A stretch of 32,330 nt of DNA, taken from the NCBI GenBank assembly GCA_013203785.1, contig JABMPJ010000170.1, positions 1 through 32,330 of the forward strand, given 5' to 3'. Below, one piece after another: positions 10,102 to 27,330 of this stretch (its first letter is position 1; each line of letters begins with the position of its first letter). Position numbers and translations under genes: made by a program. Origin of the DNA: Lentisphaerota bacterium (GTDB lineage Bacteria > Verrucomicrobiota > Kiritimatiellia > UBA8416 > JABMPJ01). The notes under the pieces were generated by a model, which saw nothing but the letters and a program-made list of their open reading frames with translations, ran no database searches and had not been told where the DNA came from.

Positions 10102-10650
10102 TCAGCGACGCTTCTTAAAGAAATCCTGGTGGTACGCTTCGGCCTCATAGAACGGCTTGGCTGGTTCGATCCGCGTAACCATTGTGCCGTCGGTGTGTGA
10201 GGACGCCGCCAACCGGTGTTTCGATCGCTCGGCCGCTTGCTTCTGCGCTTCGGTATGATGGAAAATGGCGGTCCGATAGCGCGTGCCATGCTCCGCAGTG
10301 GGATCAACATGTTCCCAGAAAATATCCAGGAGTTCCCGATAACTCACCTGGCTGGGATCATAGTGCACCTGTACGGCCTCCATGTGTCGGGTGTGGCCCG
10401 CCGATACCTCGTCATAGGTCGGGTCTGGTTTGTCTCCGCCGGTATAGCCCGATACGGCACTCGTCACACCCGGCACCTCTTCAAAAGCCCGTTCCATGCT
10501 CCAGAAGCAGCCCCCGGCAAAAGTGGCCACGGCTGGCGGCTCGATCCCCGGTTTCGTGTGATCCTTCATGAGAGCCAGCGTCGTGATCCCGGCGAGGCTC
10601 AGTCCAATCAGCACCGCCACCACGCTGACCGCTATGCATGGCGCCTTCAC
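10102..10650 (-). CDS. msrA: peptide methionine (S)-sulfoxide reductase, membrane-anchored
   Basis: A 182-residue MsrA that reduces the S-epimer of methionine sulfoxide in proteins. The catalytic motif is GGCFW with C48. The downstream blocks [27 protein letters not shown] and YHQDFF are standard MsrA. Residues about 5-28 form a hydrophobic signal anchor, so the enzyme probably faces the periplasm. The GTG at 10650 is chosen because GTGA overlaps the stop codon of the upstream msrAB gene; a frame extended to 10701 lacks this logic. The only cysteine outside the anchor is the catalytic one, and the position three residues on is Ser where the MsrAB paralogue has Cys. Recycling therefore needs an external thiol or a different mechanism. 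Confidence 0.92.
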
Positions 10651-11789
10651 TGTCCGTTCTTTGTGTTCTGGCCATCCGGTTGGGTAAAGAGGTTGCTCCA
10701 TTCCCCGTAGCCTTCCTTCTCCAGCGCATCAGCCGGAACAAACCGGAGCGAGGCAGAGTTGATGCAGTAGCGCTTGCCCGTCGGTGCGGGTCCGTCGCCA
10801 AAGACGTGCCCGAGATGGCTGTCGCCGCTCTTGGACCGTACTTCGGTGCGAGTCACCCCCAGACGGTGGTCGCTCTTTGCCACGACGTTGTCCGTCACAA
10901 GCGGTCGATCAAAAGAGGGCCAGCCCGTGCCCGATTCGAACTTATCGCGCGAGCTGAACAGCGGTTCCCCAGAAACTACATCCACGTAAATACCCGCCCT
11001 CTTGTTATCCCAGTAGGTGTTCCTAAATGGACGCTCCGTCCCCTCTTCCTGCGTCACGTTATACTGGAGTGGCGTGAGTTGTTCGCGCAGGGTCTTCTCG
11101 TCCGGCTTTACGAATCCCATGGGCTTCGGTTCGGGCTCGTAGTGAAGCTCATGGCTCCATGCCGCGGCGGCGAACCGATCACGCCCGGATGCCCTGCGGT
11201 AGGCCTTGTAGTGCGCTGAGTTCTTCTTGTAGTAGTCCTGGTGGTATTCCTCGGCCGGGTACCATGTCTGCGCGGGTTCGATGGCGGTTGCAATCGGCTT
11301 GTCAAAACGGCCCGACGCTTCCAAGCGCTGCTTGGATGCCTCGGCGTCGCGTTTCTGTGCTTCGGTATGATAGAAGATGACCGGGCGGTACTGGTTGCCC
11401 CGGTCCGCAAACTGGCCGCCGCCGTCGGTAGGATCCATGCTGCGCCAGAAGACCTCCAGCAAGTCGTTGTAGGTAATCAGTCGTGGGTCATAATGAACCT
11501 GTACGGCCTCTGCATGGCCCGTCCCCCCCGATGAAACCTCTTTGTAAGTCGGGTTCAGTTTCGCGCCGCCGGTATAGCCGGATATGACCCGCGCCACTCC
11601 CGGCAGTTTCTCGAAAGGCGGCTCCATACACCAAAAGCAGCCACCCGCAAACGTGGCGCGTTCCAGCATCTCACCGCTGTTCATGTGGCCCTGCATGGCC
11701 TCGTTCTTGTCTCGGCCGCGGACCTGTAGGCCCAGTAGAGCCAGAATCGCGACCACGCTCACACCCACTATCATTCGCTTCATCTTCAT
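10647..11789 (-). CDS. msrAB: bifunctional methionine sulfoxide reductase MsrA-MsrB, exported
   Basis: A 380-residue fusion with an N-terminal signal peptide or anchor (residues 1-25), an MsrA domain (about 44-195) and an MsrB domain (about 230-355), so both epimers of methionine sulfoxide can be repaired outside the cytoplasm. MsrA has GGCFWC with C51 and C54. MsrB has [19 protein letters not shown] (322-330) and the catalytic C342 in [11 protein letters not shown]. The MsrB zinc CxxC pairs are absent (SGEPLFSS replaces one), as in zinc-free MsrB proteins. AGAGGGAG precedes the ATG. It is the first gene of a two-gene operon with msrA, GTGA-coupled. It faces the sigma/anti-sigma pair convergently. 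Confidence 0.95.
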
Positions 11790-16797: not shown

Positions 16798-17736
16798 TTA
16801 GCTCTTGAGCGCGGCTTCGCGGTCGCGCCAATAGCGCGCCGTGTCACCGACAAGCGTGTCCAGGCGCTGCGGATCCGGGCGGCCGAACATGGCCGGATAG
16901 GGATTACCGCCCGGCCCCAGGGGTTCTGGGGTGGCGAAGCGGTGTGCACCCGCGAAGCCGGCGACGTAGAGCGCCATGATGACGGCGTCCAGATCCAAGG
17001 ACCCGGCCCCTAAGGCACTGCGGTTGGAGTCGGCGAGATGCAGGTTAATCAGGCTGTCGCCGGCCTCACAGATCGCCTCGGCCACATTGGCTTCTTCTGA
17101 CTGCATGTGATAGGCATCGCCATTGATGTGCGCGACACCGGGATGGTCGACCGCCGCGATGTAGCGCTTGGCGTCGGCAATGGTGTGAACCAGCGACACT
17201 TCCGCCGAACGAATCGGCTCGATGGCGGCACGCACGCCAGCGGCAACAAAATCATCCGCGACCAGCCGCAGTGTCTCGACCGAGCGTTCAAACTCCATGT
17301 CGTCGTAAGCGCGTGGCCGTCCGACGGCACCGGGCACGACCAGCATGTAGGTGGCGCCAACGGCGTGGCAGAGATCGAGTTGCCGCCGGATGTAGTCGAT
17401 GGCATTCTGGCGCACGATCCCCGAGTTACTCGACAGGTCGTTTTCGGAGCCGAACATGCCGCACACACCGGCCACGGAGATGCCGTGATGTCCCAATGTG
17501 TCCAGGACGTCGTTGGCTCGGTAGCCGAGGTCAGCACCGTAGCGGTTTCCGTGCAGCTCGATCCACGTGATGCCGTGTGTCGCGAGCCGCTTGGCGGAGT
17601 CCGCGAGCGGTTCGAGGCCGAAGCCCCAGTTACTCCAGGAGAGCTCCAGCGCGTGTTGCTTGAGATCAGGAGATGTTTCCATGGTCGATCGAAACGCTTC
17701 GACCAGCTTGGCTCGCTTCTGTTCGTAGTTCTGCAT
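16798..17736 (-). CDS. sugar phosphate isomerase/epimerase (xylose-isomerase-like TIM barrel)
   Basis: A 312-residue AP-endonuclease-2/xylose-isomerase-like TIM barrel, a family of metal-dependent keto-sugar epimerases and isomerases. Candidate metal ligands lie where expected: E173 (AAIEPIRS), D207 (INGDAYHMQSEE), H233 (NLHLADSNRSALG) and a Glu near 271 (ATPEPLG). The ribosome site AAGGAG lies 9 nt before the ATG and overlaps the stop codon of the upstream short gene, which is only 11 nt away, so translation is probably coupled. No signal peptide, so cytoplasmic. The substrate is probably a ketose or inositol derivative but cannot be specified. Confidence 0.9.
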   Translation of the reverse strand: MQNYEQKRAKLVEAFRSTMETSPDLKQHALELSWSNWGFGLEPLADSAKRLATHGITWIELHGNRYGADLGYRANDVLDTLGHHGISVAGVCGMFGSENDLSSNSGIVRQNAIDYIRRQLDLCHAVGATYMLVVPGAVGRPRAYDDMEFERSVETLRLVADDFVAAGVRAAIEPIRSAEVSLVHTIADAKRYIAAVDHPGVAHINGDAYHMQSEEANVAEAICEAGDSLINLHLADSNRSALGAGSLDLDAVIMALYVAGFAGAHRFATPEPLGPGGNPYPAMFGRPDPQRLDTLVGDTARYWRDREAALKS

Positions 17737-17747
17737 GATGAAGCTCC

Positions 17748-18152
17748 TTAGACTGTATCCAGCGGCACATCCAACATGATGGCCATTTTGCGCAGGGCAT
17801 CAAGGTGATGACCGAGTCCCAGTACGCCGTGATGGGTGGGCCCGAGGACGCTCCACCGGTTGATGAGCTCTCGTAGCCCGCCGTCAAAGCGGACCCTGCA
17901 ATTAGTGTCCCCCAGGTTCAGCCCTGGCCCTGGTACAAGTAGCACGACGGGAACATCCAGATCGCGAACGGCCGGTAGCAACGTGTTGGACGGTGCATAG
18001 GTCCCGATCTGGCAAATGACCAGATCGACGTCGTGTCTCTTGATGCGTTCACCGATCTGGTTCTGGTAGCCAACCAAGCGGTCACGTAGGCCATCGAATT
18101 GTGGCCAATAGGTTTCAAGGCCAATGCCGAAGAGTCCAATTCTGGTCTGCAT
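17748..18152 (-). CDS. short AraA-like protein with two in-frame internal deletions
   Basis: A 134-residue protein assembled from three separate pieces of an L-arabinose/L-fucose isomerase-like family (normally about 470-500 residues). Residues 1-36 match the family start (RIGLFGIGLETYWPQFDGL). Residues about 38-75 match the later VDLVICQIGTYAPSNTLLPAV segment. Residues about 80-134 match the C-terminus (GDTNCRVRF, then GPTHHGVLGLGHHLDAL). The HH at 107-108 corresponds to the C-terminal metal His of AraA; the other metal ligands (two Glu, one His) lie in the missing part, so isomerase activity is not expected. Yet the frame is intact, with TAGGAG before the ATG and the stop tied to the next gene's ribosome site. 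It may be a remnant, a regulatory subunit or a coupling leader. Confidence 0.75.
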   Translation of the reverse strand: MQTRIGLFGIGLETYWPQFDGLRDRLVGYQNQIGERIKRHDVDLVICQIGTYAPSNTLLPAVRDLDVPVVLLVPGPGLNLGDTNCRVRFDGGLRELINRWSVLGPTHHGVLGLGHHLDALRKMAIMLDVPLDTV

Positions 18153-18500
18153 AGAAAGCTCCTATCGAAGATCGTGTATAGTCCGCCCTGATCGTTCGAC
18201 CCTACCCTACACGGTGCCGTGAGGAAATGGAATGGACAGGCTGCCTGAATATTTGCACATTATGACTGCGAAGCAGCAGCGCTAACATGCCCTTTCGCGC
18301 CCAAACCGGCACCGCGCCGCGCCACTATCAGATCGAGATTCAGATCAACAAGGCGCGCAAGTCTGGGATCAGGAATCGACAAAGCTTGCGACAAAGCTCG
18401 CGACAAAGTTTAAGGGACACGCCCCATTCGGGGGGTCATGACCTTTTCGGATGACGTCTACCTAAGATCGTTCTGTGGATACAGTATTACCTAAACTGCT
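18153..18500. other. 348-bp gap with short repeats and palindromes
   Basis: No convincing gene. A 55-codon open frame (18287-18454, plus strand) has no ribosome site and no recognisable family. The stretch contains a 12-bp tandem repeat at 18377-18412, a CCCC-ATTC-GGGG hairpin (18422-18433) and the perfect palindrome GGTCATGACC (18434-18443) followed by TTTT. The dense short repeats suggest the relic of a small mobile or REP-like element. A TATACA at 18175-18180 (minus strand) may be the -10 of the short AraA-like gene. Confidence 0.5.
18377..18412 (+). repeat. three tandem copies of a 12-bp unit CGACAAAGCTNG
   Basis: Copies at 18377-18388, 18389-18400 and 18401-18412 all begin CGACAAAG; the third is degenerate at its end. 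They are followed directly by GGGACACGCCCC and the palindromes at 18422-18443. Function is unknown. Confidence 0.6.
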
Positions 18501-24783: not shown

Positions 24784-25968
24784 TCATTTACCCATCGCCT
24801 CATGTCCCTGCTCATCAATCACGCGCGCCCCCAGCATCACGCTTGCGGGCAATTCACCATTGATCTGCTCGCGAACGGAGGTCAGCAATGCCGCTGCCGC
24901 CTCGTCCGCACTGTTCTCCATAAATGTTGCCGGGAACGGGCATAGAAGCTGTAGCTCTTTGTTGCGGTGCAGCGCAAGCCGCAGGTCCTGCGGGACGTCC
25001 ACACGATGGCCGAGAATGGCCGTGATGACGCCCGCGACCATCACATCATCTCCCACGAGAAGTCCGTCAGGTTTCCGCGAGCGCGACCAGATTCGGCTGA
25101 AGGCGTCGTAGCCGAAGCGCTCCCAGGTTGCGGAGCCCTGAGCATCGAGAGAGGCGTTGCCGGCCTCGATCCATTCATCGCGCAGCTCCAGCCCATGGCG
25201 ACCGCACACATCGACGAAGCGCTCAAAGGCCAGCGCATACGGGTGCATGTTGCCATCCGGTCCGCAGTGCTCCGGGTGCCACGGCGCGATCAGACCGACA
25301 GACCGGCATCCCCGGCGGCTGAGCGACTCGACACCCAACTCGACAAGACAGCGCACGTCATTGGAGACGTGCGCGCCCTCGCCCTCGGCGGCAAGCGAGA
25401 CCGTGGGTGCCGGGAACTGGGGCAACCATTTGAGCGGCTGTCCGGTACTGTTCAGCACGATGACGCCCCGCAGCTCCCTGCTCGTGGCCGCTTGGGCGAG
25501 AGAGAGAGGTGCTGTGGCCTCCTGATCGGCCTGTGAGCGGGGGTCCGCCCACATTCGCAAATGGAGCCCGGCATCCTTTGCGCGGCGCCCAAGGGCACGC
25601 ACGACCGCCCGCTCGTAGGCGTGATCGGGGCCGGCCGCAGCCAGGTTGATGCACTGGTAGACCCCGATGCAGGCTGCGCACTGCGTGTGGGTGCTTGCGG
25701 TGTACGTGCCTCTGCCGTGGACCCGCGTGAGCAGGCCCTCGCGGGTCAATTGGGACATCGCCAGATGAATGGTCGACGGGCTGATGTCCCATAGATTGGC
25801 GAGCAAGCGTGTGGTGGGAAACGGCCTGTTGGCGGGGATCTGGCTAGACCGCAGTCGTCCGCTGACAAAATCGACAATCTGAGGCACCATTCCTTCCGAA
25901 GAATCCGGCGCGAATGATTTCAGGACTCTGATCGTTCGGTCGTCAATTGCGACAGGCGCACGAGACAT
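24784..25968 (-). CDS. GntR-type regulator with LacI-like sensor domain
   Basis: A 394-residue repressor-like protein. Residues about 25-90 are a GntR winged helix (PTTRLLANLWDISPSTIHLAMSQLTREGLLTRVHGRGTYTAS). The rest is a periplasmic-binding-protein-like sensor as in LacI and AraR (RGCRSVGLIAPWHPEH, DGLLVGDDVMVAGVITAIL, DLRLALHRNKELQLLCPFPATF). AraR of Bacillus has the same fusion and binds arabinose; the ligand here is unknown. The ATG at 25968 is fixed by AAGGAGGG directly upstream; the frame extends to 26046. It is divergent from a paralogue at 26149-27330 with which it shares the control region. It lies upstream of, and on the same strand as, the large secreted protein and GH116, its probable targets. 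Confidence 0.9.
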   Translation of the reverse strand: MSRAPVAIDDRTIRVLKSFAPDSSEGMVPQIVDFVSGRLRSSQIPANRPFPTTRLLANLWDISPSTIHLAMSQLTREGLLTRVHGRGTYTASTHTQCAACIGVYQCINLAAAGPDHAYERAVVRALGRRAKDAGLHLRMWADPRSQADQEATAPLSLAQAATSRELRGVIVLNSTGQPLKWLPQFPAPTVSLAAEGEGAHVSNDVRCLVELGVESLSRRGCRSVGLIAPWHPEHCGPDGNMHPYALAFERFVDVCGRHGLELRDEWIEAGNASLDAQGSATWERFGYDAFSRIWSRSRKPDGLLVGDDVMVAGVITAILGHRVDVPQDLRLALHRNKELQLLCPFPATFMENSADEAAAALLTSVREQINGELPASVMLGARVIDEQGHEAMGK

Positions 25969-25995
25969 ACAATACCCTCCTTGAAGTGAATGCAC

Positions 25996-26025
25996 ACTAT
26001 AAGACACTATCATATTGTATGTCAA
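25996..26025 (-). promoter_or_regulatory. sigma-70 promoter of the minus-strand GntR gene
   Basis: Reading the minus strand, a perfect TTGACA (26025-26020) and TATAGT (26001-25996) are 18 bp apart. The expected start of transcription, near 25990, leaves a leader of about 20 nt containing the strong ribosome site before the ATG at 25968. The direct repeat ACACTAT (25994-26000 and 26004-26010) overlaps the -10 and could be an operator half-site pair. Confidence 0.65.
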
Positions 26026-26073
26026 AATAGATCTCGCTAAAAACAACTATCACTTTGTTCTTAATTTATATCT

Positions 26074-26110
26074 TGACAATTGATCCCGCTCCCTATATTA
26101 CATCAATTGT
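26074..26110 (+). promoter_or_regulatory. promoter and inverted-repeat operator of the plus-strand GntR gene
   Basis: TTGACA (26074-26079) and TATATT (26095-26100) are 15 bp apart, or ATATTA at 16 bp. The perfect inverted repeat ACAATTGAT (26077-26085) and ATCAATTGT (26102-26110) brackets the -10 element, with centres 25 bp apart. A related TTAATTGTA follows at 26122-26130. The arrangement is that of an autoregulated repressor. Confidence 0.6.
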
Positions 26111-26148
26111 TTTAAGGCATATTAATTGTATTAGTGATTGTACTTCTT

Positions 26149-27330
26149 ATGACTCCATGCGACACAGCTACCGAGATCCCAGTGGATCACTTGTTTTCGC
26201 TGAATGGGGAATCCCCGGTTAGCGAACAGGTTGCCGCACATGTGCGCAGCTTCATTCGATCCGGGCGGTGGCCGGTTGACCACCGGCTTCCCTCCACACG
26301 CGCGCTGGCAGAAGCGTTCAGCGTGGCACCGCTAAACGTTCAGACAGGGATGCAGCAGTTGGTTCGGGAGGGGCTTCTGACACGCGTGACCGGGCGAGGC
26401 ACCTTCGTCAGAAAGACTAGTCGGAAACTAGCGTGCATAGGCGTTTATGACTCGTGCGGCGTTGATACCCATGCCGAAATGGCGTTCAGTCGCCGCTTGC
26501 TCACGGAACTGCAGGGGCTGGGTGCAGCGGCGGACATTGACCTGCGGGTATTTGTGGACACTCGGGATAGAACCACGCTTTGTGACAAGCCGCCACTTGA
26601 TCTGGCGAACGCCTGTGCGGGCGGTGAGATCCAGGGGCTAATCACTCTAAGCGCTGAGGACAACGATTGGCCATGGCTGAATAAGTTGCCTGTGCCACTG
26701 GCTGCTATCGTAAATTGGGCGCAGACGGGCAAGGTGCAGCCGGATCGGTCTCAATTGATGGACCTCGCCGTGCGGGACTTGGCGCGACGGGGGTGTCGCT
26801 CGGTGGGGCTGCTGGATATCTCGCGAGTTGATATGCGGGCCCCGAACAGCCTGGGCGCCCGGGCAGTGAGCATGTTCAAGAGGCGGTCGCATGAGTTGGG
26901 CGTGGAAACACGCGATGCATGGATGCTGTTGCCATCGCCGGATTTCCATGACGATTTCCTGACACATGAGGAGTACGGTTACATCCGCTTCAAACGGCTC
27001 TGGAGTCTCGCTGAGCGTCCTGAGGGTCTCGTCGTGATCGACGACGTCGTGGCGCGTGGTGTGCTGCTGGCGTTGTTGGAGCATCGGGTTCACGTGCCCG
27101 AGGAACTACAGCTCACCATCCAACGCAATCGGGAATGCAAGCTTCTGTGTCCGGTACCGGCCTCCTTTGTCGAGTTGAGTGTGCGTGAAGTGGCAGCAGC
27201 GTTGATGAAGGACTTGAGCCGACAATTCAATGCGGTCCCTCGCCCGGTTATTACCGTGCCGTTTCGCCTTGTTCCGGCGGAACGGGCGTACCATCGGAAC
27301 GAGGGCGAATGTGTTGGATACGGGGGGTAA
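26149..27330 (+). CDS. GntR-type regulator with LacI-like sensor domain (paralogue)
   Basis: A 393-residue regulator with the same plan as its divergent neighbour. The GntR winged helix lies in residues about 15-85 (PSTRALAEAFSVAPLNVQTGMQQLVREGLLTRVTGRGTFV), followed by a LacI-like sensor (RRGCRSVGLLDISRVDMR, EGLVVIDDVVARGVLLALLEHRVHVPEELQLTIQRN). The two share a C-terminal block around RNRECKLLCPVPASF versus RNKELQLLCPFPATF, so they are duplicates of one ancestor. The ATG at 26149 is chosen; a GTG at 26134 is an alternative, and neither has a clear ribosome site. It is followed 23 bp later by the discoidin-like secreted protein on the same strand, which it may regulate. Confidence 0.88.
   Translation: MTPCDTATEIPVDHLFSLNGESPVSEQVAAHVRSFIRSGRWPVDHRLPSTRALAEAFSVAPLNVQTGMQQLVREGLLTRVTGRGTFVRKTSRKLACIGVYDSCGVDTHAEMAFSRRLLTELQGLGAAADIDLRVFVDTRDRTTLCDKPPLDLANACAGGEIQGLITLSAEDNDWPWLNKLPVPLAAIVNWAQTGKVQPDRSQLMDLAVRDLARRGCRSVGLLDISRVDMRAPNSLGARAVSMFKRRSHELGVETRDAWMLLPSPDFHDDFLTHEEYGYIRFKRLWSLAERPEGLVVIDDVVARGVLLALLEHRVHVPEELQLTIQRNRECKLLCPVPASFVELSVREVAAALMKDLSRQFNAVPRPVITVPFRLVPAERAYHRNEGECVGYGG

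Follow-up and report, generated by a model that had tools for sequence, protein, structure and literature searches.

The short open reading frame (ORF) at 17748..18152 on the minus strand of the window, which is the whole 32,330-nucleotide stretch of DNA analyzed here, is probably a pseudogene of recent origin, the relic of a ~490-residue aldose isomerase of the AraA/FucI superfamily that two frame-keeping deletions have reduced to 134 amino acids. The relic reading is favored because metal ligands are lost, the short form is not conserved, the predicted fold is poor, and a parallel case exists in the genome G540. An enzyme gene has been shorn of two thirds of its length with the frame kept, and gene finders would call the result a normal small protein. 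An intact short ORF and a good ribosome site are not evidence of function. In-frame relics recur in the AraA-like isomerase family, and relic formation here is an ordinary process. If the short form were selected instead, a new small protein would have been born from a dead enzyme.

The Short ORF and Its Signals

The ORF runs on the minus strand from an ATG at 18150-18152 to a TAA at 17748-17750, and its 134 codons form an unbroken frame. As read from the sequence, an AGGAG Shine-Dalgarno (SD) motif lies 6 nt 5' of the ATG (18159..18163, minus strand), and the AAGGAG motif of the downstream epimerase gene (17744..17749, minus strand) overlaps the TAA of the short ORF. The gap to the ATG of that gene is 11 nt. 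Both the good ribosome site and the 11-nt spacing to a TIM-barrel gene had been reported in the first-pass annotation, and both are seen again here. Scans of the locus for promoters, terminators, and Rfam families gave no match. The short ORF is probably the first ORF of a two-gene unit and is probably still translated. Its codon bias is low, with only 10 of 237 windows of neighboring genes lower, which is a weak pointer to relaxed constraint; as a counterpoint, the bias is also weak in the regulator at 26134-27330.

Family Assignment

Over its retained parts, the short ORF belongs to the AraA/FucI-superfamily aldose isomerases, as judged from sequence comparison. It matches a profile of full-length relatives at E=2e-46 with three collinear domains (hmm 20-65, 84-118, and 422-483 of 484); this profile was built from eight full-length relatives and the short protein itself, whose inclusion raises its own score, while the pairwise matches are independent of the profile. 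In pairwise comparison, ~490-residue ORFs from numerous genomes of the phylum match the short protein. When searched alone as a single sequence against Pfam and NCBIfam models and PDB sequences it has no match, and its homology is visible only via the family profile or in pairwise comparison with full-length relatives. Membership of the AraA family, which had earlier been proposed from motif recognition only, is thus borne out by the profile, and the three collinear pieces agree with the claim that the family start, a middle segment, and the C-terminal metal-His region are kept.

The full-length relatives contain the Pfam AraA C-terminal and central domains, some of them below the curated cut-off, and match L-arabinose isomerase structures by profile at E=1.6e-21. 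The fold of a full-length relative matches AraA with a TM-score of 0.86, and fucose isomerase comes next. Similar to the known AraA/FucI superfamily (PF11762, PF24856, PF02952; E. coli AraA 2ajt, 4f2d), these relatives share the fold, the domains, and the four metal ligands. In the short ORF, the N-terminal start, the middle strand-helix-strand, and the C-terminal His region are retained, but ~330 of ~484 positions are gone, among them three of the four ligands. The AraA-like proteins L067, L068, and L098 (MAGs labelled Planctomycetia and Eubacteriales bacterium; G540) are ~50-53% identical to the short ORF over the retained residues; in contrast to it, all are full-length, with ~490-514 amino acids. 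Matches on plasmids cover up to about 40% of the query and are full-length-type arabinose isomerases of rhizobia and Deinococcus. Viral contigs gave a single, very short match.

Deletions and Lost Residues

At junction 1 (18021..18032, minus strand; residues ~41-44), ~26 amino acids are missing from the N-terminal domain. When aligned to L067, IKR-D is joined to VDLV and the 26 residues VDVIDLGLIDSPEKTHWAAEQFRNNC are skipped, a segment that forms strand 2 and helix 2 in the structure predicted for a full-length relative. At junction 2 (17931..17939, minus strand; residues ~72-74), ~303 amino acids are missing, including three of the four metal ligands. With them go the central domain, the remainder of the N-terminal domain, and the greater part of the active site (profile positions 119-421 are absent), and the full set of N-terminal, central, and C-terminal domains, which takes ~450-500 residues, is not present in the 134-residue product. 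The retained C-terminal part of ~62 residues (17751..17936, minus strand) carries the GDTNCR and GPTHH motifs. By alignment, with residue numbers counted along the alignment to AraA, Glu306, Glu333, and His350 of E. coli AraA fall in the deleted part, and only the equivalent of His450 (H108) is kept; we take these four residues to be the metal ligands of the E. coli enzyme. Because three of the four are lost, the short protein should be without isomerase catalysis. The missing segments are found nowhere else in the window, and the search of the remaining genome yielded only distant full-length family members.

In relatives, VD-type repeats mark the two ends of deletion 1 (VDV... and VDLV..., like the starts of strands 2 and 3). 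A slip between such short repeats, which would be in frame by construction, is a plausible origin of this deletion, with the putative microhomology read from L067. The isomerase gene of ~490 residues would then have lost a single strand-helix unit of its N-terminal domain (~26 residues), with a naturally in-frame outcome if the deletion fell between the repeats at the starts of strands 2 and 3. A second deletion would have removed ~303 residues, with the frame kept by chance. The resulting peptide is probably translated but would give no working protein, and the only likely effect of the short ORF would be that it precedes the epimerase gene, which is equipped with a ribosome site of its own.

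The first-pass annotation had described two in-frame deletions of about 35 and 300 residues; the frame and the larger size hold, while the smaller deletion comes to ~26. It had also argued that decay by chance usually leaves frameshifts and stops. That argument is weak here. The chance that two independent deletions are both in frame is 1/9, so two clean in-frame deletions are not improbable by themselves, and other relics of this isomerase family also have in-frame deletions.

Predicted Fold

AlphaFold, run with 40 aligned family members, gives the short protein a pLDDT of 66.9 and a pTM of 0.47, and residues 76-90 fall below 50. A full-length relative predicted with nearly the same alignment reaches a pLDDT of 93.0 and a pTM of 0.92. 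The predicted fold of the short protein has no match in the PDB at E<=0.001. The structure prediction suggested earlier as a check thus gives no confident fold next to an excellent full-length control. The remnant is predicted to make no sound stand-alone domain, although the model would allow it to fold with a partner.

Distribution of the Short Form and of the Downstream Epimerase

The search covered two overlapping sets, one of 346 genomes from the class and one of 388 sampled from the phylum, which together make up ~680 distinct genomes. The short protein has matches in 92 of the 346 and in 101 of the 388. The majority of the matches examined lie in full-length frames, and the short ones mostly run into contig ends. 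No comparable intact short form occurs in either set; among the matches examined, the one other short form of this kind is the decaying copy of G540, which has another junction. Among the ~680 genomes of the phylum there is also no relative closer to the short protein than ~53% identity. A contig scan found six relatives, of which four are full-length or nearly so, one is cut by a contig end, and one is a weak match. The short form thus appears unique to the source genome, and the suggested search for the same short form in related genomes found none conserved across the phylum set. An AraA-like ORF of a genome of the same genus (L028 3606-5438, G004) has the last ~85 family residues replaced by ~140 unrelated ones inside the contig, which looks like a C-terminal deletion with read-through.

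The gene downstream of the short ORF (16798..17736, minus strand) is intact and encodes a TIM-barrel sugar epimerase/isomerase-like protein of 312 amino acids (PF01261, E=6.5e-29). Outside the source genome it has 18 orthologues with 57-72% identity, and 0 of the 18 adjoin a gene of the isomerase family of the short ORF; therefore, the pairing of the two genes is not conserved. In G183, a very distant isomerase lies ~5 kb from the epimerase orthologue on the opposite strand. Four genomes of the same genus have no close match to either the short ORF or the epimerase gene, and among the genomes searched none shares this locus.

Parallel Relics

G540 contains a 140-residue ORF (L120 7026-7445, G540:C45) in which profile positions 22-81 are joined to 423-484 by one in-frame deletion. 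At the corresponding position, its congener G611 carries the full-length gene next to an AraC orthologue (71% identity), and in G606 a full-length gene adjoins a less similar AraC gene (48%). Over 115 shared codons, the changes specific to the G540 copy at codon positions 1/2/3 number 11/13/17, against 9/7/42 summed over the two congeners (positions 1+2 versus 3, Fisher p=0.003); the C-terminal piece was aligned without gaps for these counts, and the comparison of synonymous with nonsynonymous changes does not reach significance by itself (p=0.10). In addition, the metal His is changed, the stop codon is lost, and 6 of 25 conserved columns are changed. The G540 copy is clearly decaying, with near-neutral changes across codon positions, and it demonstrates that an in-frame, ORF-preserving deletion occurs during plain decay in this family.

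The short ORF of the window and the G540 form belong to the same family, both join the N- and C-terminal ends in frame, and their C-terminal breakpoints are one profile position apart (422 and 423, respectively). In contrast to the window, the G540 form has one deletion and not two, has lost conserved residues and its stop codon, and has a full-length orthologue in G611.

A third relic of the family, L095 6113-7058 (G158:C10), has several in-frame deletions as well as frameshifts. An in-frame excess over the three relics (6 of 8 indels, p ~0.02, with the G158 indels counted from our own reading of the alignments) was considered and dropped, since two of the three relics owe their detection to being in frame.

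Relic or Selected Protein

In the short ORF of the window, 23 of the 26 columns conserved at >=95% are kept and three are changed, and two of these changes (N to D and A to V) are common to the relative L068. The retained residues look unworn, as they would if the deletions were recent or if selection continues. The intact start, stop, SD motif, and spacing, the frame of both deletions, and the removal of an exact strand-helix unit fit selection as well as youth. When one or three of the changes are counted as neutral, and 2.3 nonsynonymous sites per codon are assumed, the neutral divergence since the loss stays below about 8 or 13% (95% limit). At such divergence, a 134-codon frame remains without stops with a probability of about 0.2-0.4 or more, so youth alone explains the intact frame, as selection would too. 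In a leave-one-out profile comparison the short form scores 6th lowest of 51, which is uninformative since divergent full-length subfamilies score lower.

Most Salmonella pseudogenes have a single inactivating mutation, with short deletions prevailing, and the youngest of them disappear quickly (Kuo and Ochman 2010, PMC2916853), so that at a given time most of the relics that can be observed are young and little degraded. Similar to these bacterial deletion pseudogenes, the short ORF was made by deletion, has few lesions, and is probably young. Unlike them, both of its deletions keep the frame and leave a usual-looking ORF.

The first-pass annotation had left the choice between a selected mini-protein and a very young relic; the latter fits better. 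A selected mini-protein would be a stable small domain, for example a subunit that partners the downstream epimerase or senses sugar for it, and the intact frame, start, stop, and SD motif, the almost unchanged conserved residues, the clean excision of one strand-helix unit, and the tight spacing to an intact sugar gene are all consistent with it. However, the same short architecture was not found in several species, 18 genomes have the epimerase without it, the product has neither a confident stand-alone fold nor a fold match, the ligands are lost, and the known second short form, that of G540, is decaying. We therefore consider such a protein unlikely. It is quite improbable that in-frame excision of strand-helix units has given rise to a small protein under selection, which might sense sugars or partner the epimerase, with the breakpoints at 422/423 marking a separable module.

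Translational coupling, in which the peptide itself is irrelevant and its translation opens or feeds the epimerase ribosome site, would agree with the 11-nt gap and with the overlap of the TAA and AAGGAG, but the epimerase gene has a good SD motif of its own, its orthologues stand without such a leader, and the full-length gene would have passed on this spacing in any case, which makes a coupling leader very improbable. An assembly collapse or chimera in this metagenome-derived contig, with a longer real gene, comes to mind with a draft of 229 contigs. That too is highly improbable, as the window holds no missing segment at another place, only distant full-length members were found in the remainder of the genome, and there are two separate junctions, both in frame, with an unbroken downstream context. 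Finally, unequal recombination could have fused two tandem AraA-like paralogues, with the N-terminal 41 residues taken from one and the rest from another. The N-terminal part is nearest to L067, the C-terminal part is nearest to L068, with which it shares GDTNCR and HHGV, and the segment trees disagree; yet AU tests reject neither placement (p 0.40-0.85), the segments are short, and L068 sits on a long branch, and so this origin is extremely improbable.

Gene Neighborhood

The source genome is a 4.0-Mb draft with 93.7% completeness, and the short ORF is set in a carbohydrate gene cluster. Upstream of it, at a distance of 348 bp, is a GH116-type glycoside hydrolase gene, and beyond that come a 1225-residue ORF and a regulator of GntR/LacI type. 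The 348-bp spacer (18153..18500) contains an interspersed GACAAAGC repeat at 18376-18408. Further copies of this GACAAAGCTTGC/GACAAAGCTCGC repeat occur in the genome on three contigs, two of which have facing inverted pairs. At 24784-27330, two divergent GntR-like regulators of similar architecture lie side by side, and the second of them (26134-27330) has an unusually weak codon bias. On the minus strand at 10102-11789, two overlapping ORFs resemble peptide methionine sulfoxide reductases by eye, MsrA and then MsrA-MsrB.
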